A stretch of 10,877 nucleotides of DNA from contig JAOPVG010000029.1 of NCBI GenBank assembly GCA_025966255.1, forward strand, positions 1 through 10,877, written 5' to 3'. The notes under the pieces were generated by a model that saw nothing but the letters and a program-made list of their open reading frames with translations, did no database searches and had not been told where the DNA came from. Position numbers and translations under genes: made by a program. This DNA comes from Jatrophihabitans sp. (lineage in GTDB: Bacteria > Actinomycetota > Actinomycetes > Mycobacteriales > Jatrophihabitantaceae). Of the stretch, positions 886 through 8,667 are shown piece after piece (position 1 is the stretch's first letter; each line of letters opens with the position of its first letter).

Positions 886-1176
886 GTGTCGAGTCTCAAG
901 GTCACCCCGGGTCAGCTCGAAGCCCTCGGCGGCAGCGCGCATCGCGTGTGCGCGGACGTGCGGGGTGAGCATCAGAGCCTGAAGTCCCAGCTCTCCCCGC
1001 TCTTCGGTGCCGACTGGTCAGGAGCGGCCGCCGCTCAGTTCACCACGCTGTACGAGAACTTCGATCAGCACGCAAAGGGGTTGTGCGACGCGCTTGACGG
1101 CATCGCCGCACTGCTGGTGCGCGCCGGTGCCAACTATGCCGATGTCGAACAACAGATCGCCGCGTCGTTTCATTGA
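886..1176 (+). CDS. WXG100 family (ESAT-6-like) type VII secretion substrate
   Basis: This 96-residue protein is typical in length for a WXG100 protein, which folds as a helical hairpin and is exported as a dimer by FtsK/EccC-type ATPases. The central turn motif W44-S45-G46 lies between two predicted helices, at roughly residues 7-40 and 47-90. Near the C-terminus Y84-A-D-V-E88 matches the YxxxD/E type VII export signal. The GTG start at 886 is chosen because a strong ribosome binding site, GGAAGGAG (872-879), sits 6 nt upstream and because it gives a normal WXG100 N-terminus. The gene diverges from the FHA-FtsK gene and converges with the next gene, leaving only 20 bp between the stop codons. 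Two cysteines (C22 and C67), one in each helix, are slightly unusual for the family. Which partner it pairs with is not visible; it may homodimerise. Confidence 0.9.
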   Translation: MSSLKVTPGQLEALGGSAHRVCADVRGEHQSLKSQLSPLFGADWSGAAAAQFTTLYENFDQHAKGLCDALDGIAALLVRAGANYADVEQQIAASFH

Positions 1177-1196
1177 TGGCGATCGACGATGGACCG

Positions 1197-2366
1197 TCAG
1201 GTGATCGCAAGGTAGGGGATGAGGACGGAGTCCGTGATTTGATCGCCACCCAGCTCACTGGGCAGGTACGCCTCGACGTTGACGATGCCCTCGCCGATAA
1301 GCGCGCGGGCCCCGGACAGCGCGAAGTAGAAGTACTCGCCGGGGTTGATCACGCCGTTGGGCGCCACGATCTCGAGGTAGTGGATCATCTCGCCGTTGGC
1401 GGTGGTGAACCTCGCAGTCGCCTGGAACTGGCCTCCCATCAACGGCTCGTCGCCGGTACTCACCGCGTTGATGAAGAACAGATCGGCGGCTTCCTCGTAG
1501 TGCATGGCTCCATCGGCGTCATGCCAGCGGGCCTCGGGTCCCTGCTCGACGAATGTGTGTGGATCACGTCCGTCGGTGCTCGGGTCGCGCGGAGCCTCAT
1601 TGCGCAGCGACGCCCAGGTCTGGTTGCCGACAACTCCGTCCGCCATCAGACCCTTGTCGCTCTGGTAGCGGTAGACCGCCTGATACGTGCCGTTGCCGAA
1701 GTCGCCGTCGACCGCCAGCACTCCGTACCCACGCTCGTTCAGCATCTGCTGCAGGTACTCGACCCACCCGTCCACGCTCTTGTCGCCGTGCCGCAGGGTC
1801 GGCTCTGCGGTGTCGACGGGTGGCGTGTACTCGGGCTCGGGCGGATCAACGTACGGCGGATCAACGTGCGGCGGGTCGACGTGCGGGGGATCAACGTGCG
1901 GCGGGTCGACGTCGGGCGTAACTGCCGGCGGGCCGCCGACGAGGCTGAAGTTGAACCGCACCTTGTCGTGGCCACCGGTTGGCTCGTCCTCGACGGCCGA
2001 GTAGAGCGACGCCTGGTCACCGATCAGCTCATGGTCGGACGAGTTCGATCCGACCGCCGGCAGGTCCCAGTGGATCGTCCACTCGGCCTGACCCATGCCG
2101 CCCGCGTTGTACTTGATCGTGCCCTCGCAGCCGGTCATGAAGCTGTTCTCGGAGTCCATGACGCCGAAGCTGTCCTGGCCGCCGGGCGGGATCGAGTCGG
2201 CGCGGTCGGTCGCGAAGCGCCCGTGCTCGCTGTGCTCGTGCACCCGCCACAGCAGCTGGGTGCTGTGGTTCTTGACGGTGATGATTCCGGACCGTTTGGG
2301 GTTGATGGCCTGGATGACGTCGATGACTGCCTCGACGCCGTGGATGATCTCGTCCGCACCAACCAT
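1197..2366 (-). CDS. Mosaic protein: aegerolysin-like domain, DPPHV-repeat linker, peptidoglycan-binding domain, C-terminal Ig-like domain
   Basis: This 389-residue protein has several parts. (1) Residues 25-144 are beta-rich. The pattern ITVKN (29-33), PPGG (60-63), GCEGTIKY (79-86) and HWDLPAVGSN (99-108) resembles aegerolysins, small membrane-binding cytolysin-like proteins; this match is tentative. (2) Residues 145-188 are a Pro/Asp-rich linker with DPPHV repeats. (3) Residues 190-256 are a PG_binding_1 domain, with signature DGWVEYLQQML, VDGDFG, and GLMADGVVGNQTW before LR. (4) Residues 280-389 are a beta-sandwich resembling CARDB/Ig domains (NPGEYFYFAL at 341-350). There is no signal peptide or lipobox, so export, if any, is not by Sec/Tat with an N-terminal signal. 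The ATG at 2366 has a GGGGG ribosome binding site 6 nt upstream. The function is unknown. Its PG-binding domain is closely related to the one in the gene at 3912-4529. Confidence 0.72.
   Translation of the reverse strand: MVGADEIIHGVEAVIDVIQAINPKRSGIITVKNHSTQLLWRVHEHSEHGRFATDRADSIPPGGQDSFGVMDSENSFMTGCEGTIKYNAGGMGQAEWTIHWDLPAVGSNSSDHELIGDQASLYSAVEDEPTGGHDKVRFNFSLVGGPPAVTPDVDPPHVDPPHVDPPHVDPPYVDPPEPEYTPPVDTAEPTLRHGDKSVDGWVEYLQQMLNERGYGVLAVDGDFGNGTYQAVYRYQSDKGLMADGVVGNQTWASLRNEAPRDPSTDGRDPHTFVEQGPEARWHDADGAMHYEEAADLFFINAVSTGDEPLMGGQFQATARFTTANGEMIHYLEIVAPNGVINPGEYFYFALSGARALIGEGIVNVEAYLPSELGGDQITDSVLIPYLAIT
1843..1917 (-). repeat. Five 15-bp in-frame repeats encoding the DPPHV linker
   Basis: Five consecutive 15-bp units are read on the plus strand as GGATCAACGTACGGC or GGGTCGACGTGCGGG and close variants, at 1843, 1858, 1873, 1888 and 1903. 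The unit is a multiple of three, and on the minus strand it encodes DPPHV, with one DPPYV. Units of the GGATCAAC and GGGTCGAC types partly alternate, as expected if a two-unit block was itself duplicated. The array joins the aegerolysin-like and peptidoglycan-binding domains and could vary in copy number between strains. Confidence 0.85.
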
Positions 2367-2399
2367 TGGATTCCCCCAGATGCTGTGAGCGTTTCTGCC

Positions 2400-2428
2400 A
2401 CGGTCGGCGGGCGGGCACCACCGATCAA
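2400..2428 (-). promoter_or_regulatory. Possible promoter of the aegerolysin-like/peptidoglycan-binding gene
   Basis: On the minus strand TTGATC (2428-2423) and GACCGT (2405-2400) are spaced by 17 bp, ending 33 bp upstream of the ATG at 2366. The -35 is good and the -10 is poor. It is placed mainly by spacing and by its position in the divergent gap. Confidence 0.25.
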
Positions 2429-2432
2429 GGAT

Positions 2433-2473
2433 CCCAGTACGGCCGAGGGGGAGGCCGGTCTTGCCCCTCTGGG
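2433..2473. other. GC-rich nested inverted repeat in the divergent gap
   Basis: CCCAG (2433-2437) pairs with CTGGG (2469-2473), and inside it AGGGG (2446-2450) pairs with CCCCT (2464-2468), with an 8-nt bulge on one side and a 13-nt loop. It lies between the divergent promoters of the mosaic gene and the SUFU gene. It may be an operator or RNA structure, or chance in GC-rich DNA. Confidence 0.25.
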
Positions 2474-2555
2474 CAGTTCGGGGAATCGGGCGAACGGCCG
2501 CGGACCTCCGGCAGCCGCCCGGCGGCCGCGTCCGAGCAGCCGGTTGAGTGTCCGC

Positions 2556-2567
2556 TAGCGTCGCAGC
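2556..2567 (+). promoter_or_regulatory. Leaderless-type -10 element of the SUFU gene
   Basis: TAGCGT (2556-2561) matches the actinobacterial -10 consensus TANNNT and is followed after 6 nt by the GTG start at 2568. No Shine-Dalgarno sequence is present. This is the geometry of a leaderless transcript starting at the G of GTG. No convincing -35 is seen at the usual spacing, which is common for such promoters. Confidence 0.5.
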
Positions 2568-3146
2568 GTGAGCGAGGTGCCGGTGCTGTCGGCGATCGAG
2601 GCCGCGATGGTGGACCACTTCGGCCACCGGCCACAACGGGCCTCGGTGTCCTTCGTCGGCGTCGATCCGATCGAGGTGCTGCGCTTCGAGCCGATTCCCG
2701 GTGAACGCGCCTACCTGACCCTCGGGATGGCGCGACATCCCATGACGGGATCGGCCGAGTCGGTGCTGTCAGCGGACGGACCACGGGCCGAACTCATGCT
2801 GCACGTCCGGGATCCCACCGACGAGCACGCGGAGATCTGGCGCAAGCTCGCGGTGCTCGCCGCCGCTCCGGCAGTAGAGGGCGTCGTGTACGCCGGCGGC
2901 ATGACTATGGACATCGGCGAGCCGCTCGTCGCCGCGTCGGCCTGCGTGGGTGTCGTGGTCGTCGACTCACCATTGCGGCCGGTGGCGGGGCCATCCGGGG
3001 ACGTCAGCATCCTGCAGGTCCTGCCCGCGACCTCGAACGAACTCGCCTGGTGCCGGGTGCACGGCAGCGCCGCGCTGCGGGAGCGGTGGCTCGACCGCGA
3101 CGCCGACCTGCTCGACCTGACGCGCCGTGCTGTGCCGCTGGACTGA
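2568..3146 (+). CDS. Suppressor of fused (SUFU) domain protein
   Basis: This is a 192-residue protein resembling bacterial stand-alone SUFU-domain proteins. Supporting landmarks are the N-terminal helix (VDHFGHRP, 15-22), TLGMARHPM (51-59), RAELMLHV (73-80), a helical segment with WRKLAVLAAAP (91-101) and the C-terminal ILQVLPATSNELAWCRVHG (about 147-165), which fits the usual 'LLP.T..E' region. Bacterial SUFU proteins are mostly uncharacterised, but the superfamily is recognised among immunity proteins of polymorphic toxin systems. It diverges from a lysin-like/peptidoglycan-binding gene near a type VII secretion pair, so an immunity role is possible but not shown. It looks cytoplasmic, with no signal peptide or membrane helix. 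The GTG start is supported by the leaderless promoter. Its last three codons, CTG GAC TGA, form the first unit of a tandem array that continues downstream. Confidence 0.8.
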   Translation: MSEVPVLSAIEAAMVDHFGHRPQRASVSFVGVDPIEVLRFEPIPGERAYLTLGMARHPMTGSAESVLSADGPRAELMLHVRDPTDEHAEIWRKLAVLAAAPAVEGVVYAGGMTMDIGEPLVAASACVGVVVVDSPLRPVAGPSGDVSILQVLPATSNELAWCRVHGSAALRERWLDRDADLLDLTRRAVPLD

Positions 3147-3243
3147 CGCGGGCTGGACTGAACGCGGGCTGGACTGACGCGGGCTGGACTGAACGCGGGC
3201 TGGACTGACGCGGGCTGGACTGAACGCGGGCTGGACTGAACGC
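3138..3243 (+). repeat. Tandem array of 15/16-bp units growing from the SUFU stop codon
   Basis: Six full units and a truncated seventh alternate between CTGGACTGACGCGGG (15 bp; 3138, 3169, 3200) and CTGGACTGAACGCGGG (16 bp; 3153, 3184, 3215), with the partial unit at 3231-3243. The array is therefore a 31-bp dimer repeated three times. The first unit contains the SUFU stop codon. Each unit carries one TGA (3144, 3159, 3175, 3190, 3206, 3221, 3237), and the 15/16 alternation puts these stops in all three forward frames. There are no unique spacers, so it is not CRISPR. Confidence 0.93.
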
Positions 3244-3340
3244 CAGGCTGCGCTGTGCCTCCCCGCTGAACGGCGAGCGAACGACCTCCGTCACGTCCGA
3301 ACGCCCCGAATCGCGTCCGGAAAACCGCCCCGCCACACTG

Positions 3341-3352
3341 GTGACCGGTCAC
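3341..3352. promoter_or_regulatory. Perfect 12-bp palindrome upstream of the MaoC gene
   Basis: GTGACCGGTCAC is a perfect palindrome ending 27 bp before the MaoC GTG start. Its size and position suit an operator for a dimeric repressor of TetR or GntR type. No regulator gene lies next to it in the window, so the regulator is unknown. Confidence 0.4.
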
Positions 3353-3379
3353 ATCCGCGCCGCCCAGAGGAGACGCATC

Positions 3380-3889
3380 GTGCAGTTCGGTCGCTACTAC
3401 GAGGAGTTCGAGGTCGGCGCGGTCTACAAGCACTGGCCCGGCAAGACGGTCACCGAGTACGACGACCACCTCTTCTGCCTGCTGACGATGAACCACCACC
3501 CCCTGCACATGGACATCAACTACGCGGAGAAGACCACCGATTTCGGCAAGAACGTCGTCGTCGGGAACTACGTCTACTCGCTGCTGCTCGGTATGTCGGT
3601 GGCCGACGTCAGCGGCAAGGCGATCGCCAACCTCGAGGTCGAGTCGCTGCGCCATGTCGCCCCCACCTTCCACGGCGACACGATTTACGGCGAGACCACC
3701 GTGCTCGACAAGACGCCGTCCAAGTCGAAGACCGACCGCGGCGTCGTCTACGTCGAGACGATCGGCTACAACCAGGACGGCACGATTGTGTGCATCTTCC
3801 GCCGCAAGGTCATGGTCCCGACGCAGGAGTACATCGACGCGCGCGGTGGCGAGCAGCCCGGCCGGCCCCAACCGATCCCGCGTGGCTGA
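3380..3889 (+). CDS. MaoC family (R)-enoyl-CoA hydratase/dehydratase, single hotdog domain
   Basis: This 169-residue protein fits a single-domain MaoC hydratase, which adds water across the double bond of 2-enoyl-CoA esters. The hydratase signature is TMNHHPLHMD (36-45): H43 fits the catalytic His, while the usual catalytic Asp of GDxNPxH is Asn38 and the usual Asn is His40. Other matches are KNVVVGNYVYSLLLGM (57-72), HVAPTFHGDTIYGET (92-106) and a C-terminal FRRKVMVP (140-147). I recall the TMNxxPLHxD variant from a MaoC branch that includes the mycobacterial Rv2499c and mesaconyl-CoA hydratase-like proteins, which points to branched acyl-CoA catabolism rather than bulk fatty-acid synthesis. 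The GTG at 3380 is chosen over upstream starts because AGAGGAGA (3366-3373) lies 6 nt before it and the family N-terminus (QFGRYYEEFEVG) begins there. It stands alone, without a CoA ligase or dehydrogenase beside it. It converges with the next gene across 22 bp. Confidence 0.9.
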   Translation: MQFGRYYEEFEVGAVYKHWPGKTVTEYDDHLFCLLTMNHHPLHMDINYAEKTTDFGKNVVVGNYVYSLLLGMSVADVSGKAIANLEVESLRHVAPTFHGDTIYGETTVLDKTPSKSKTDRGVVYVETIGYNQDGTIVCIFRRKVMVPTQEYIDARGGEQPGRPQPIPRG

Positions 3890-3911
3890 AGCGCGCGAGG
3901 CGAGCTCGGCG

Positions 3912-4529
3912 TCACTGCACGCTGAATTGTCCTGAGTGCTTCTCGGCCCCCAGACCGGGAGGCATCTCGGCGTCGTAGGTGAAGTCGCCGGTACCGAGCT
4001 CCTTCCGCAGGTTGGCGACCGTCGCGCTCATCATCTCCCCGGCGTTCGTCTGGCCGGAGAGCGAGACGCTCGTCAGCGGCAGCTGCTTGAAGGTGACCCC
4101 CTGGGAACCGCCGGTGATGTTGATGTCGAGGAAGTACTGGTTGTCGGGGATCGGGATCGAGCCCACGGATTCGAGAAAGAACAGCAGGCTGTCCCCGTCG
4201 TCGGACGTTTCCCCGTTCTTACCCAACGGGCTCTGATCGACGAAGAAGACCGCGTGCATCGTGGCGTCCGTGTCCTGGTGCGCATGCCCATCGGTGCCGA
4301 CCGCCGCCTGCTCGCCACCCCGCAACACCGACCACGTCTGGTTACCGACGACGCCGTCCACCATCAGCCCGTTCTGTTGCTGGAACTCGTAGACGGCTTT
4401 GATCGTCTCGTCCAAGAAGATGCCGTCGATCTTGATGTTCGGCGCCACGCCGAGCAGTAACTCCTGCGCGTATTCCACCCAGCCGTCGGCGCTCTGATCG
4501 CCATAGTGCAGTGTCGGTTCGCCCGTCAT
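3912..4529 (-). CDS. Peptidoglycan-binding-domain protein with C-terminal beta domain, paralogue of the mosaic protein
   Basis: This 205-residue protein starts directly with a PG_binding_1 domain (residues 4-71). The signature GDQSADGWVEYAQELL, then DGIFL, then GLMVDGVVGNQTWSVLR, closely matches residues 189-255 of the mosaic protein at 1197-2366. A His/Asp-rich stretch (80-92) leads into a beta-rich C-terminal domain (92-205; VFFVDQ, YFLDINITGG, TSVSLSG, GDFTYDAEMPPG). This is probably an Ig-like sandwich and may be distantly related to the C-terminal domain of the mosaic protein, which has the same arrangement: PG domain, short linker with DADGAMH or DTDATMH, then a beta domain. There is no signal peptide or membrane helix. 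The ATG at 4529 is supported by the ribosome binding site GAGGGGG (4541-4535), 5 nt away. No enzyme motif is visible; it is likely a binding or structural protein. The function is unknown. Confidence 0.75.
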   Translation of the reverse strand: MTGEPTLHYGDQSADGWVEYAQELLLGVAPNIKIDGIFLDETIKAVYEFQQQNGLMVDGVVGNQTWSVLRGGEQAAVGTDGHAHQDTDATMHAVFFVDQSPLGKNGETSDDGDSLLFFLESVGSIPIPDNQYFLDINITGGSQGVTFKQLPLTSVSLSGQTNAGEMMSATVANLRKELGTGDFTYDAEMPPGLGAEKHSGQFSVQ

Positions 4530-4584
4530 GTCCGCCCCCTCGACAGTTCACGCAATCGTGGTCGCCGCAGACGTCAACGCGCAG

Positions 4585-4604
4585 CCGAGGCGGACGCGCC
4601 TTGG
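4585..4604 (-). terminator. Possible hairpin terminator after the NUDIX gene
   Basis: Read on the minus strand, CCAAGGCG and CGCCTCGG flank the loop CGTC. They pair over 8 bp with one A-C mismatch, 34 bp beyond the NUDIX stop codon. It has no U-tract, but actinobacterial terminators often lack one. It could equally be a chance GC-rich hairpin. Confidence 0.3.
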
Positions 4605-4638
4605 GGCAGCCGAACCTGCACGTTGGGGAAGTCGACCG

Positions 4639-5040
4639 TCAGTCCGGCAGCAGGCCCCAGTCGGCCAGGGCCTCGTGCAGCCCGGGCGCCAGCTCAAGGG
4701 CAAGGAACTCCAGACGCGTCACCCAGCGTGCGTCGGCGGCGTCGTCGCCGGGCTGTAGCCGCCCACCGGTGACCCGACACACGAAATCGTCGATCACGTA
4801 GCTTCCCCCGCTCGGCGCGGCCCGTTCCACCCGTCCGGCGAAACGCTCGACGGCCACGACCAACCCGGTCTCCTCGGCGACCTCGCGCACGCACGCGTCG
4901 GCCGCCGGTTCGCCGGGCTTGCATCGCCCACCGGGCACCGACCACGCGCCTTCGGACGGCGGCTGCCCCCGCCTGATGACGAGCAGCCGCCGGTCGTCGT
5001 CGAACACGATCCCGCCCGCGCACGGCTTGCGATCGACCAC
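4639..5040 (-). CDS. NUDIX hydrolase
   Basis: This 133-residue NUDIX hydrolase would cleave a nucleoside diphosphate linked to another moiety, using Mg2+. The NUDIX box GX5EX7REUXEEXGU is complete: G38, E44, R52-E53, E56-E57, G59-L60. Upstream, CAGGIVFDDDRRLLVIRRGQPPSEGAWSVPGG (split here as residues 7-26 and 27-38) matches the strands and loop that lead into the box. The C-terminal region (DDAADARWV, 99-107) is the usual position of the acidic strand before WV. The substrate cannot be predicted; the sequence resembles ADP-ribose pyrophosphatase/MutT-like members. The GTG at 5040 is preferred because GGGAGG lies 4 nt upstream and the NUDIX fold begins immediately. The longer in-frame extension to 5178 would run into the small gene on the other strand and has no family-like sequence. 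Its end (LLPD stop, GGACTGACG) matches the core of the tandem repeat units in a single copy. Confidence 0.88.
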   Translation of the reverse strand: MVDRKPCAGGIVFDDDRRLLVIRRGQPPSEGAWSVPGGRCKPGEPAADACVREVAEETGLVVAVERFAGRVERAAPSGGSYVIDDFVCRVTGGRLQPGDDAADARWVTRLEFLALELAPGLHEALADWGLLPD

Positions 5041-5161
5041 GACACCTCCCAAGCAAATGTGGCCCGCGGCGCGGCATCCCGAATTGCCCAGCTGCGTGCG
5101 GTATGAACGATCCGAGGCAAGCCGCTGTGGTGCGCCCGGAAAACCGAGGGGGCGCTTCCCG

Positions 5162-5320
5162 ATGGCAAAGCTTGTCATCTCCGGGCTTATCGTCGCCTTC
5201 GTCCTCTTCTACGTCATCACCTCACCGAACAACGCGGCGAACATCGTCACAGCGGCGTGGCACGTCGCCGTGACCGTCGCGCACGGCATCGGTAACTTCT
5301 TCAACAAGCTCTCGTCCTGA
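5162..5320 (+). CDS. Conserved small membrane protein (52 aa)
   Basis: This is a 52-residue protein with one N-terminal transmembrane helix (about residues 4-20, LVISGLIVAFVLFYVIT), then SPNNAANIV and an amphipathic helix (about 27-48) ending NFFNKLSS. I recall short actinobacterial proteins beginning MAKL and containing FVLFYVI.. P in the same position, directly upstream of a PH-domain membrane protein, which is the arrangement here. The ATG at 5162 has GAGGGGG (5146-5152) 9 nt upstream. The next gene starts 6 bp after its stop, so the two are almost certainly co-transcribed. The biochemical function is unknown. A partner or accessory subunit of the bPH2 protein, or a membrane-curvature or channel-like peptide, are the reasonable guesses. 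Confidence 0.78.
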   Translation: MAKLVISGLIVAFVLFYVITSPNNAANIVTAAWHVAVTVAHGIGNFFNKLSS

Positions 5321-5326
5321 GGCATC

Positions 5327-5896
5327 GTGCCGGCCTTCCTGTCCTCCGAACTGCCGGTGCGGGCCACGGCCCGGCAGCATCCCATCGTGCTGTTCCGCAA
5401 GCCGCACAGGATCAGTGTGATCCTGTCCGGCGTGCTGCTGGTGGCCGCGTGGCTGTGGCCGTGGCCCTGGGCGTTGATCCTGACGTTGACCTGGATGGTG
5501 CTGGCCTCGATGCGCTGGCGGGAGTGGCGGGCCGAGCAGATCATCCTCACCCGCAAGCGGGTCATCCACGTCCAAGGCATCCCGGAGACGGTCTCGGGCG
5601 AGGCGTGGTTGCGTCTCGACCGGATCTCCGGCGTGCGCTTCAAAGAGACGGTGCCGGGCAAGATCCTCGGATACGCCAACATCTATCTCGAGGCGCCGGG
5701 TGACCATCCAGGCCTGAACCGGTTGATTCGCATGCGGCACCCGAGTCGGTTCTATACCGAGCTGCGTGCTCAGGTGCTGGGCGAAGACGTGGTGGCGACC
5801 GATCCGGACGACAATCCAGTCGACTACGTCACCGAGCCGCTGCCGATCGTGGACGTCGAGCGCGATCGGTTCGGCCGCCGCCGCTACGGACCTTGA
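5327..5896 (+). CDS. bPH2 (bacterial PH) domain membrane protein
   Basis: This is a 189-residue protein. Two adjacent transmembrane segments (about 28-45 and 46-62, rich in Trp/Leu with PWPW between them) are followed by a bacterial PH domain at about 68-152. The domain has IILTRKRVIHVQG (72-84), LRLDRISGVRF (95-105) and the characteristic KILGYANIYLE (112-122). The PH domain should face the cytoplasm. A charged C-terminal tail ends RFGRRRYGP. Proteins of this type (bPH2/YdbT-like) are widespread in actinobacteria, and their role is poorly defined, generally thought to be at the membrane. The GTG at 5327 lies 6 bp after the preceding stop, and TGAGG overlapping that stop may serve as a weak ribosome binding site, consistent with coupled translation. 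The following PHP gene has its own promoter-like sequence. Confidence 0.85.
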   Translation: MPAFLSSELPVRATARQHPIVLFRKPHRISVILSGVLLVAAWLWPWPWALILTLTWMVLASMRWREWRAEQIILTRKRVIHVQGIPETVSGEAWLRLDRISGVRFKETVPGKILGYANIYLEAPGDHPGLNRLIRMRHPSRFYTELRAQVLGEDVVATDPDDNPVDYVTEPLPIVDVERDRFGRRRYGP

Positions 5897-5908
5897 ACCG
5901 CCCCGCCA

Positions 5909-5922
5909 TAGGCTGGGTATAC
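5909..5922 (+). promoter_or_regulatory. Leaderless-type -10 element of the PHP gene
   Basis: TAGGCT (5909-5914) fits TANNNT and lies 8 nt before the ATG at 5923. No Shine-Dalgarno sequence is present. TTGAAC (5893-5898) is too close (10 bp) to act as its -35. Confidence 0.4.
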
Positions 5923-6780
5923 ATGCGCATCGATCTGCACACCCACACCACGGCCTCGGACGGCACCGACACGCCGGGCGATCTCGTGCGCGCGGCCGCT
6001 GCGGCCGGGCTCGACGTCGTCGCAATCACCGACCACGATTCGACCGCCGGCTGGGACGCGGCGTTCGCGGCCCGTCCGGCCGGGCTGACCGTCGTCCCTG
6101 GCGTCGAGTTCTCCTGCGTCCATCAAGCGGCGGACGGACGGCGGACGAGCCTGCACCTGCTCGGCTACTTCGCCGACCCGGACAACGTCGCGATCCAGGA
6201 CGAGTGGGCCCGGCTGCGGGCCAGTCGGCGAACCCGGGGCAAGGCGATGGTCGACAGCCTCGTCGCCGACGGCTATCCCATCACCTGGGAGCAGGTGAGC
6301 CTGCTCGCGGCATCAGGCTCGGTCGGCCGCCCGCACATCGGCCGGGCGCTCGTCGACGCCGGCGTCGTGCCCGACGTCTCTACCGCGTTCACAGAACTGC
6401 TGTCGTCGCGGCAGAAGTACTACGTGCGCAAGGCCGACGCGGACGTGTTCGACGCGATCCGACTGGTGCGCGAGGCCGGGGGACTGCCCGTGTTCGCCCA
6501 CCCGATCGCCCGGCGCCGCGGCCCGGTGGTCTCCGACGAGGTCATCGCCGCCATGGCCGCGGCCGGGATGGTGGGCATCGAGGTCGACCACCCCGATCAC
6601 GACCCGGCCGACCGGGCGCACGCCGCCGGGCTGGCCCGCGAGTTGGGCCTGCTGGGCACCGGCTCGTCCGACTATCACGGCACGAACAAGCCGACCGAAC
6701 TCGGCGCCTGTCTCACCGACCCCGAGGTCTACGAGCGGCTGCTCGCGCTGCCGGCCGCCCTGAAGCCGGTCGGCGAGTGA
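5923..6780 (+). CDS. PHP-domain phosphoesterase, TrpH/YciV (RNase AM)-like
   Basis: This is a 285-residue PHP-superfamily metal-dependent phosphoesterase. The four PHP motifs are intact: DLHTHTTASDGT (4-15), ITDHDS (35-40), PGVEFS (59-64) and HP at 193-194 (FAHP), followed by the C-terminal GIEVDHPDH (218-226) and GSSDYHG (247-253). The insertion GRPHIGRALV (135-144) and the overall length match the TrpH/YciV group. Characterised members are 5'-3' exonucleases acting on short RNAs and rRNA 5' ends and on 3',5'-nucleotide bisphosphates, with three bound metal ions. The same activity is likely but not proven here. The ATG at 5923 is chosen because motif I begins at residue 4 and a leaderless -10 element precedes it. 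An extension to 5893 would overlap the previous gene without benefit. The protein is cytoplasmic. Confidence 0.9.
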   Translation: MRIDLHTHTTASDGTDTPGDLVRAAAAAGLDVVAITDHDSTAGWDAAFAARPAGLTVVPGVEFSCVHQAADGRRTSLHLLGYFADPDNVAIQDEWARLRASRRTRGKAMVDSLVADGYPITWEQVSLLAASGSVGRPHIGRALVDAGVVPDVSTAFTELLSSRQKYYVRKADADVFDAIRLVREAGGLPVFAHPIARRRGPVVSDEVIAAMAAAGMVGIEVDHPDHDPADRAHAAGLARELGLLGTGSSDYHGTNKPTELGACLTDPEVYERLLALPAALKPVGE

Positions 6781-6818
6781 TCCCGGACCGCGTCACTGGT
6801 GGCCGGTTACGCCCACTC

Positions 6819-6840
6819 GTGGTCCCGTGGAAGTGACCAC
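6819..6840 (+). terminator. Weak hairpin after the PHP gene
   Basis: GTGGTC (6819-6824) and GACCAC (6835-6840) pair over 6 bp with a 10-nt loop, 39 bp after the PHP stop. A nearby direct repeat AGTGACCA (6832-6839 and 6852-6859, 20 bp apart) overlaps it. The element could be a terminator or an operator; the evidence is weak. Confidence 0.22.
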
Positions 6841-6930
6841 CAGACGGGCTGAGTGACCATTGGTGCAGCTCGACCACGTCCGATCGAATGGGCTCGGACG
6901 CGCCGCGGCCGAACTGTCCGGACCGGCGGC

Positions 6931-6943
6931 TACCGTGACTCGC
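6931..6943 (+). promoter_or_regulatory. Leaderless-type -10 element of the RecB-family nuclease gene
   Basis: TACCGT (6931-6936) fits TANNNT and is separated by 7 nt from the ATG at 6944, with no Shine-Dalgarno sequence between them. This supports the ATG at 6944 over the upstream in-frame GTG at 6860. Confidence 0.5.
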
Positions 6944-7816
6944 ATGACCGTCGTGGGGCAGCCGGAGCTCGGGCCTGAGCAGCTGACCCTCGCGCACATG
7001 CCCACCCGCCTCTTCGGGTGCACACCGTCGCGGCTGGCCGCCTTCGACTGCCCGCGGCGGTACCGGTTCACCTACCTCGATCGCCCCGCGCCCGCCCGTG
7101 GCGCGCCGTGGGCGCACAACACCGTCGGCGCCACGGCGCACCTCGCGCTGCACCGCTGGTGGCTGCTCCCGCGATCCCAGCGCACGCCCGACGAAGGGGC
7201 CAGCCTGGTCGAGCGCAACTGGCAGGCCAACGGATTCCGCGACGACGCGCAGTCCGCGCAGGCGTGCGTCACCACCGCCGCGTGGGTCCGGCAGTATCTC
7301 GCCGACCACGTCGATCCGGCCGACGAGCCAGTCGGCGTCGAGCGCACGGTTGCTATGCGGACCGAACGGCTCGCGGTCTCCGGACGGGTCGACCGCGTCG
7401 ACGATCGCGACGGCGAGCTGGTGGTGGTCGACTACAAGACGGGCCGGCGTGAGCTCACCGCCGACGACGCGCGGGGCTCGCAGGCGCTCGCGCTGTACGT
7501 GCTGGGCGTCCGCCGCACGCTGCGCCGCGGGTGCAACCGCGTCGAGCTGCACCACCTGCCCACTGGCAAGGTGTCCGCCTTCGAGCACACCGACGAATCC
7601 CTGCAGCGGCACCTCGACCGCGCCGAGAGCGCCGCCGAGGACATCGTGGCGGCCACCGACACGCTCGCGTCCGGCGCGTCGGCCGATGACGTGTTTCCGC
7701 CGATGACGTCCTCCGCCTGCGGCTGGTGCGACTTCCGCCAGCACTGCCCCGAGGGACGTGCGGCCTCCCCGGATCTCCACCCGTGGGCCGGCCTGGCCGA
7801 GCCGCCGCCCAGCTGA
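6944..7816 (+). CDS. RecB-family PD-(D/E)XK nuclease with Cas4/AddB-type Fe-S cluster
   Basis: This is a 290-residue stand-alone nuclease. The active site is visible: G62-x3-H66 (motif GxxxH), D150 in SGRVDRVD, D163-Y-K165 in VVDYKTG, and Q180 in SQALALY. One cysteine in FDCPRRY (C36) and three in ACGWCDFRQHC (C259, C262, C268) make the four ligands of the [4Fe-4S] 'iron staple' found in Cas4, AddB and related nucleases. It has no helicase domain. No cas genes are nearby, so it belongs to the housekeeping actinobacterial group annotated as RecB-family exonucleases (for example Rv2119 of M. tuberculosis), with a likely DNA-repair or DNA-end-processing role. The ATG at 6944 follows a leaderless promoter. 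The stop codon directly abuts a 14-bp tandem array shared with the convergent oxygenase gene. Confidence 0.88.
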   Translation: MTVVGQPELGPEQLTLAHMPTRLFGCTPSRLAAFDCPRRYRFTYLDRPAPARGAPWAHNTVGATAHLALHRWWLLPRSQRTPDEGASLVERNWQANGFRDDAQSAQACVTTAAWVRQYLADHVDPADEPVGVERTVAMRTERLAVSGRVDRVDDRDGELVVVDYKTGRRELTADDARGSQALALYVLGVRRTLRRGCNRVELHHLPTGKVSAFEHTDESLQRHLDRAESAAEDIVAATDTLASGASADDVFPPMTSSACGWCDFRQHCPEGRAASPDLHPWAGLAEPPPS

Positions 7817-7890
7817 CCAGGCGAGTCAGACCAGGCGAGTCAGACCAGGCGAGTCAGCCCAGGCGAGTCAGCCCAGGCGAGTCAGCCCAG
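7815..7890 (-). repeat. Tandem array of 14-bp units between convergent genes, overlapping the oxygenase stop codon
   Basis: Five full units plus a partial one are read on the plus strand as GACCAGGCGAGTCA (7815, 7829, 7843) and GCCCAGGCGAGTCA (7857, 7871), then GCCCAG (7885-7890). On the minus strand the unit is CTGGGCTGACTCGC or CTGGTCTGACTCGC. The unit at the oxygenase end contains that gene's last codons, CTG GGC TGA. Each unit has one minus-strand TGA (complement of TCA at 7882, 7868, 7854, 7840, 7826), and 14-bp spacing places them in all three frames. The array fills the whole gap between the two stop codons. Confidence 0.93.
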
Positions 7891-8667
7891 TGCCGCGGCC
7901 CGCTGCTTGGCGTCGCGGTAGAGCGGTCCTTCGCGGTACTGGGCGGGCAGGGTGCGCACGGCGCCACGCAGGGCGAGCATCCCGGCTGCGGTGGCGACGC
8001 GCCGTCCGGGCAACGCCGGGAGCCGATACGCGCGCAGCGCCCAGCCCGGCAGTAGGCCGACGGCCAGCGCCGAGACCGTCGTCCAGCCCACCCGGGCGGG
8101 CACCACGAATCGGGTGGGCACCGGCAGGGGCGGCGCGAGGACGATCCGGGCGGCCGCGCGTGCCTCCGGGGTACTGCGCAGCACGGGCCGCATGGCCTTG
8201 ATCGCTTCGGTCAGCTCGGCGGCGGTGGTGGGCGTGCGCGCCGACTCGACGCCGACGAGTTCGGCCGCGCGCACCTGCTCCGCGACGTAGCGGTCGGCGT
8301 CGGCCTGCGAGAGGCGCAGGCCCGCCGCCCGGGCTGCGACGAGGAAGGACTCGACCAGGCACAGGTGCACCCAGGCCAGCTGCTCCGGATCGTCGATGCC
8401 CAGGGCCGCATGCACGCGCCGAACTCGAGCCGCAGCCGCATCGACGTCCGCGCGTCGGCCGAAGGAGACCGTCCCGACATAGGTGACCGTGGATTGCAGG
8501 CGGGCCCACGGGTCGTCCTGGAAGTCGGAGCGGGTGTGCAGCAGCGCCATCGCCTCTGGATGCAGCGCCTGCAACAGCAGCGCACGCAGGCCACCCACCA
8601 TCGCGACCGGCTCCCCGTGGATTCGCCAGGTCACGCTGCCGGGCCCGAAGTAGCCAAGATCGCTCAT
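7882..8667 (-). CDS. MpaB/DUF2236 family oxygenase
   Basis: This 261-residue protein matches the DUF2236 (MpaB/rubber-oxygenase catalytic-domain) family. The N-terminus (GPGSVTWRIHGEPVAMVGG, 8-26) is the hallmark. It continues with LLLQALHPEAMALLH (30-44), where H36 is a candidate haem ligand, then SDFQDDPWARLQSTVTYVG (47-65) and the helix LAWVHLCLVESFLVA (97-111) with H101. Members include latex-clearing protein and fungal MpaB, b-type haem oxygenases that cleave double bonds of isoprenoid or lipid chains. Most actinobacterial members have unknown substrates. The ATG at 8667 starts the family N-terminus. No strong ribosome binding site is visible, but the gene begins only 19 bp after the preceding hydrolase stop. 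A hydrophobic segment (about 196-212) may be buried or membrane-associated. It is last in a three-gene leftward operon. Confidence 0.87.
   Translation of the reverse strand: MSDLGYFGPGSVTWRIHGEPVAMVGGLRALLLQALHPEAMALLHTRSDFQDDPWARLQSTVTYVGTVSFGRRADVDAAAARVRRVHAALGIDDPEQLAWVHLCLVESFLVAARAAGLRLSQADADRYVAEQVRAAELVGVESARTPTTAAELTEAIKAMRPVLRSTPEARAAARIVLAPPLPVPTRFVVPARVGWTTVSALAVGLLPGWALRAYRLPALPGRRVATAAGMLALRGAVRTLPAQYREGPLYRDAKQRAAALG

Follow-up and report, generated by a model that had tools for sequence, protein, structure and literature searches.

Stop-spanning tandem arrays at two gene ends of a Jatrophihabitans contig and their probable origin by local amplification

A stretch of 10,877 nucleotides (nt) of Jatrophihabitans sp. 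DNA (contig JAOPVG010000029.1 of assembly GCA_025966255.1), here called the window, carries two tandem repeat arrays, each of which begins in the last codons of a protein-coding gene. Array 1 starts in the end of a SUFU-domain gene and array 2 in the end of an oxygenase gene. Both repeat the core CTGG[A/G/T]CTGA, and the stop codon of each gene is the TGA of the first copy. The observation is sound and its cause an ordinary one, namely a pair of local minisatellites derived from the ends of their own genes. In full, each array is read as a local tandem amplification (minisatellite) of the 3′ end of its own gene, silent for the protein and without a shared spreading signal, with a probability of about 0.80. 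The figure is set at this level because array 2 lacks a single-copy ancestor and because the divergent spacers of the bacterial family are not depleted of arrays.

Structure of the arrays and origin of their units

The window is contig 193 of the assembly, termed G000 (3.79 megabases (Mb), 631 contigs, 79% complete). The SUFU-domain gene (2568..3146, + strand) is identified by an open reading frame and a Pfam match (PF05076, E 2.3e-23), and its stop TGA (3144-3146) lies within the first copy of array 1. This array (3137..3243, + strand) is composed of the unit (G)CTGGACTGA(A)CGCGG, with seven cores at 15- or 16-base spacing and a higher-order period of 31 base pairs (bp) that matches at 100% over 3137-3239. 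The native gene end, CTG GAC TGA (3138..3146, + strand), is its first core. Array 2 (7815..7890, − strand) is built from a 14-bp unit, CTGG[G/T]CTGACTCGC (98% match), in five full cores and a partial sixth. The MPAB/Lcp-type oxygenase gene from which it extends (7882..8667, − strand; PF09995, E 4.5e-48) ends in CTG GGC TGA at 7890-7882, with its stop TGA at 7884-7882 within the first copy. Read from this stop on the − strand, three CTGGGCTGA cores are followed by two CTGGTCTGA cores and then the partial copy. The array occupies the entire gap between the oxygenase gene and the convergent PD-(D/E)XK nuclease-type gene (6941..7816, + strand; PF12705, E 1.2e-30), its far end touching the nuclease stop (7814-7816).

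The full cores in each array all point one way, and the eight occurrences of CTGGNCTGAC in the window all fall within the two arrays (shuffles expect 0.17). Both arrays have the hallmark of a minisatellite, a unit in the range of about 10-100 bp repeated head to tail. An earlier reading of the window from its letters alone, referred to below as the original prediction, had reported two arrays sharing a core and a codon phase, and this is confirmed: both stops are the TGA of the first CTG-GNC-TGA. The single-copy match GGACTGACG that it described at the end of a NUDIX gene (4639-5049, − strand) exists as well, at 4637..4645 rather than 4635-4643, a slip of two bases. No array is found there, and the codon preceding GAC is CCG, hence this end is not CTG-GNC-TGA.

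Orthologous gene ends were compared within the family, that is, the 24 genomes labelled f1, which we take to be Jatrophihabitantaceae. Among the relatives of the window's oxygenase gene, the two that bear a name come from Jatrophihabitans metagenome assemblies. One genome per species was used, so that only presence or absence between species is visible. The SUFU gene of the congener G001 has just one copy at its end, GCTGGAC-TGA-CGCGGA (GCTGGACTGACGCGGA), which differs from unit 1 at one of 16 bases; the SUFU gene of G014 likewise ends in CTGGAC-TGA, without an array. Because the orthologous end in G001 holds the unit as a single copy, array 1 arose in place and is, to judge from the compared sequences, an amplification of the gene's pre-existing end. 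Of the 22 family genomes with a SUFU match, 21 were read at the gene end, G005 being left out because its match is split in two (a separate look at its SUFU end saw no array). Stop-spanning arrays are present at three of these 21 ends (G000, G008 and G010), each with a different unit. In G008 (L034), a second and unrelated 14-bp array, of the CATGCGCTGTGCGG type, lies behind the stop-spanning one, about 68-112 nt past the SUFU stop.

An oxygenase match exists in 21 family genomes, and the gene end was inspected in 11 of them. Ten were readable, the G014 sequence ending before the stop; the G013 match, only 46% identical, may be a paralog. Two of the ten carry a stop-spanning array, namely G000 (CTGGGCTGACTCGC) and G011 (CTGGGCTGATTCGGGG), the latter belonging to another genus. 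Array 2 is very likely also an amplification of its gene's own end (Leu-Gly-stop), and would then have originated in place.

In the proposed mechanism, a segment that takes in the final codon or two, the stop and some of the adjoining spacer would be duplicated head to tail. Replication slippage is the most likely route by analogy with known minisatellites, which favours the slippage-prone site that the original prediction had listed among its options. Its view that the arrays are tied to gene ends, with the stop codon and its context being copied, is likewise supported. Provided that it starts no later than the stop and reaches beyond it, a tandem duplication would leave the protein unchanged, the first copy keeping the coding end and the stop while later copies would be free to vary. 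Array 1 may have expanded further via a 15 + 16 = 31-bp dimer, and array 2 in two blocks, G copies and then T copies. Events that cross the stop or fall in convergent spacers would be tolerated, and those inside genes or across starts more often removed. Such a rule of silent duplication would account for the stop-spanning arrays, their codon phase, the excess in convergent spacers, the lower number at starts than at stops and the free choice of period. The codon phase would be shared because the first copy retains the gene end and stop, and the letters because both genes end in Leu-(Asp/Gly)-TGA in common codons. We infer that the arrays have no function.

Placement of tandem arrays around stop codons

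Tandem arrays (period 7-60, score ≥50) were counted in 1.52 Mb from six family genomes: 123 kilobases (kb) of G000 including the window, 400 kb each of G001, G006 and G012, and 100 kb each of G010 and G015. The comparison sample was 600 kb, drawn from six genomes that belong to other families of the order. A later addition of 100 kb more of G015 alone contributed 3 array-stop pairs. Arrays in convergent spacers may enter the count once for each gene. Genes were called with a purpose-made codon-usage caller rather than a published one; its call at 1176-2558 (+ strand) of the window is probably wrong.

The family sample holds 40 array-stop pairs versus 10 array-start pairs (1396 called genes), and the other families hold 13 versus 1 (531 genes). 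Across these 53 stop pairs the unit differs at almost every gene, the main exception being the G012 repeat family described below. Family arrays per kb number 0.21 in coding DNA, 0.80 in co-directional, 0.77 in divergent and 1.8 in convergent spacers. The corresponding densities in the other genomes are 0.17, 0.70, 0.12 and 1.6, and there upstream depletion is seen (divergent versus co-directional spacers).

The frequency with which arrays cover the stop was compared with a silent-zone model, in which array starts are placed uniformly over the zone that opens one period ahead of the stop and closes where the spacer ends. In the family, 36 of the 99 arrays in 3′ flanks cover the stop versus 31.1 predicted (z 1.46, and 1.17 and 1.27 at score thresholds of 60 and 80); outside the family, 9 of 32 do so versus 9.8 predicted. 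Stop overlap is therefore about as silent placement predicts. The 5′ boundaries of arrays show no peak at the stop: in the 496 family genes that have 60 nt or more free, 20 boundaries fall within the 15 nt preceding the stop and 24 within the 15 nt that begin with it.

A related measure, the "stop echo", records 10-mers that cover the stop and reappear unchanged within 45 nt. It is found at 2-3% of stops in G000, G006, G012 and G015 and at lower rates in G010 (1.2%) and G001 (0.3%); shuffles give 0-0.2% and internal codons 0-1%. Anchors placed 50-70 nt downstream score as high or higher in G000, G001, G006 and G012, whereas in G015 they do not; nothing is therefore special about the stop itself. 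Since the six genomes of other families give 0-3.4%, the effect is not confined to the family.

Several observations weigh against local amplification, and some of them return below in support of alternatives. None of the readable orthologous oxygenase ends showed a single-copy ancestor of unit 2, and copy-number variation between isolates was not observed, with one genome per species. Family divergent spacers are as array-rich as co-directional ones (0.77 versus 0.80), so that upstream removal is not seen there, and the family excess over uniform placement (z 1.46), though within noise, is positive. Units 1 and 2, which lie in arrays 4.7 kb apart, are identical at 11 of 14 positions when aligned at the stop, and agreement of at least 11/14 is reached by only 0.33% of random pairs among 113 sampled G000 gene ends. 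The likeness is thus real, but the wording of the original prediction, agreement at nearly all positions, was slightly generous. Near-copies of unit 2 (≤2 mismatches) outside its array in G000 number 7 versus 2 for the control, an excess. The sequence CTGGNCTGA stands at a called stop in 11 of its 45 occurrences, versus 284 of 2756 for all NNNGNCTGA, although for GTCGNCTGA the count reaches 17 of 62. For either strand, the RNA of array 2 has a somewhat better fold than its shuffles (z -2.28 on the − strand and -1.91 on the + strand). Finally, later copies keep the bases of the stop triplet in 246 of 266 cases versus 779 of 895 for flanking bases, as counted in 51 of 56 array-stop pairs, those with at least two full copies. 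By array bootstrap the difference of 0.055 has an interval of -0.003 to 0.102, with 3% of resamples ≤0, which places it at the edge of noise. In terms of whole triplets, some in-register stop is found in 71 of 89 later copies, versus 913 of 1346 other triplets that are unchanged.

Among these points, the likeness of units 1 and 2 remains the strongest sign of a link between the arrays. Its weight is reduced because the cores stem from the ends of the genes themselves, and 11/14 agreement also occurs in 13 of 1540 pairs of stop-spanning units, the window pair included.

Terminators, dispersed repeats and fail-safe stops

A role of the arrays as transcription terminators or 3′ processing signals, as raised in the original prediction, would suit their position between or after genes and the folding of array 2 noted above. 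Such a role is nonetheless very unlikely. Array 1 folds with a z score of -0.65, and hairpin pairs from three dispersed repeat families of relatives reach -5.8 to -10.6, values that the window arrays do not attain. No stop-spanning array is present at 18 of the 21 SUFU ends and 8 of the 10 oxygenase ends read in the family. A GC-rich hairpin followed by a T run, as in intrinsic terminators, is found at neither array; the sole terminator-like site in 3000-8000 lies at 6705-6690, away from both (shuffles expect 1.5). Comparison with Rfam elements produced two sub-threshold matches only, neither at an array.

One of the dispersed families just mentioned lies in G012, a complete genome from another genus of the family. 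It contains 485 exact matches to GTTGANGTTGCCCN{1,3}GTTG versus 0 for the control, and the same core pattern has 0 matches in eight congeners. Within 400 kb of G012, 92 core copies with ≤4 mismatches (0-2 for shuffled cores) form 35 clusters, of which 19 are arrays and 16 are single matches, nine of the latter inside genes. Nearly all arrays have 31-33-bp spacing, with spacers that are largely array-specific; examples at gene ends on contig C1 are L152:2095-2243 and L159:18709-18916. All 15 clusters in convergent spacers are in sense orientation as seen from the nearer gene, and six of nine such spacers hold both orientations, while the seven clusters in co-directional spacers comprise five antisense and two sense. 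The TGA of the core is the stop of four called genes in the 400 kb. For two G012 genes orthologs were sought in the eight congeners, with 0/8 found for one and 2/8 for the other. One gene stopped by the core ends in VTRAR-stop, and its two orthologs (54-56% identity) end in VTRVDDGS-stop (G018) and TITANAD-stop (G023), a difference that looks like replacement of the original end by the core.

Inverted arrays that are likewise dispersed but built on different cores occur in G006 (L134:19264-19386, CGCTTCCCCCACCCGGTG) and G001 (L119:15316-15453, AAGTCGCCAGTCGGC), these cores having been seen in their own genomes only and without a shuffled control. One pair from each genome folds with z -10.6 (G012), -5.8 (G006) and -9.2 (G001), compared to +1.15 for a plain stretch. 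Different genomes of the family thus seem to carry different spacer repeats. Unlike these families, the window arrays are neither dispersed, inverted nor strongly folded.

Stop-spanning arrays might be the seeds of such species-specific dispersed gene-end families, copied to other ends together with their stop, although we give this idea very little credence. If it were true, G012 would represent the mature stage (485 GTTGANGTTGCCC copies, often as inverted pairs in convergent spacers), and the two similar G000 arrays 4.7 kb apart would be the first step.

The central claim of the original prediction was a single dispersed repeat family that carries a stop codon and is recruited at gene ends across the genome. 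A genuine family of such a kind exists in G012, with a different sequence, and the 11/14 likeness of units 1 and 2 would be expected of one; for the window core we nevertheless consider it highly unlikely. The tandem-core pattern (two cores 4-9 bases apart, with the reversed pattern as control) occurs in G000 at arrays 1 and 2 only, the control at no site of the 79% complete assembly, and the stop-spanning arrays of other genes have other units, which argues against one repeat family. The core is thus not a general feature of gene ends in this assembly, nor does it stand as the same sequence at many gene ends of G000, an outcome that the original prediction had itself named as refuting. Among 61 genomes (G000 and 60 relatives), the tandem core is present in 9 and the control in 8, though within the family the counts are 7/24 versus 2/24, and outside it 2/37 versus 6/37. 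Ten distinct tandem-core loci lie in eight other genomes, and at three of them (G011, G030 and locus b of G016) the first exact core match provides the TGA at which the called gene stops.

Near-copies tell a similar story for unit 1, with 5 outside its array in G000 (≤2 mismatches) versus 8 for the reversed control and hence no excess; this result and the single copy in place in G001 both speak against a common sequence recruited at 3′ ends genome-wide. The excess noted for unit 2 points the other way, and of its seven near-copies two were fetched, one antisense within a gene and one a single copy at a gene end. In all, three of the 12 near-copies were fetched, two of them inside genes and the third, on contig 128 (unit 2), the single copy at a gene end. 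The expected number of chance gene-end matches to a given stop-spanning unit at 14/16 bases is about 0.5 per genome (15 in 112,728 comparisons), or about 0.3 without the six matches that fall within the G012 family. The contig-128 copy is thus near chance level and needs no special cause.

Selection for repeated stop codons as fail-safe stops in several frames is extremely unlikely. TGA does fall in all three frames within each window array, owing to the unit spacing, stop triplets are retained slightly above their flanks at a borderline level, and periods not divisible by three are found in 43 of the 56 stop-spanning pairs, versus 68 of 116 fully noncoding arrays. In-frame backups, however, are not favoured: the period is a multiple of three in 13 of the 56 stop-spanning array-gene pairs, with no excess of in-frame backup stops, versus 326 of 371 arrays wholly in coding DNA, and there is therefore no sign of selection for them. 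Ho and Hurst 2019 (PMC6764699) similarly describe additional in-frame stops in eubacteria as scarce rather than in excess.

Comparison with known repeats and implications

A literature search found no account of tandem repeats at stop codons in Jatrophihabitans, with most subscription journals outside its coverage. The window arrays resemble bacterial minisatellites, or variable-number tandem repeats, in their head-to-tail 14-31-bp units, their position in spacers and their locus specificity. The copy number of such repeats differs between isolates of a species, a property to which the present set of one genome per species does not extend, and the window units differ in containing the stop codon of the host gene. 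REP/REPIN elements are palindromic, dispersed and linked to a Y1 transposase. They share with the arrays an extragenic position near gene ends, but the window arrays are neither dispersed nor in inverted pairs. This candidate was rejected, as the cores of each array face one way and no Y1 (RAYT-type) transposase domain was found (PF01797 in 0/6 genomes; its control gives matches in 5/14).

Two further systems offer partial parallels. As described in PMC9879509, Borg tandem repeats are of independent and recent origin and can begin in gene ends, and their unit lengths are divisible by three within genes but in only 14-38% of intergenic repeats, a pattern like that seen here. Borgs, however, are archaeal and extrachromosomal with A-enriched perfect units, whereas the window units are GC-rich and imperfect and lie in a bacterial assembly. 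The TAACTGA repeats of Beggiatoaceae (PMC4679880) are likewise short direct repeats with stop triplets in all frames, and overlap stops in 13 cases. They differ in being one genome-dispersed heptamer located mostly towards start codons, whereas here each gene has a different unit.

The window also holds a tandem repeat at 1840-1912, inside a probable − strand gene, where it encodes a VDPPH linker. Its period of 15/30, a multiple of three, contrasts with the periods of 14 and 15/16 of the gene-end arrays. At 3912-4529 (− strand) lies a protein with a peptidoglycan-binding domain, to which part of the 1197-2366 (− strand) frame is similar by eye; the two are possibly related genes flanking the SUFU-MaoC pair.

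No special signal has to be invoked for repeats that copy a stop codon, as they are invisible to the protein and can build up at the ends of genes. This calls for caution in annotating GC-rich bacteria and in searching them for motifs, since a shared core in stop phase can be the product of codon usage and local duplication. The contrast with G012 makes the distinction between local amplification and spreading computationally testable.

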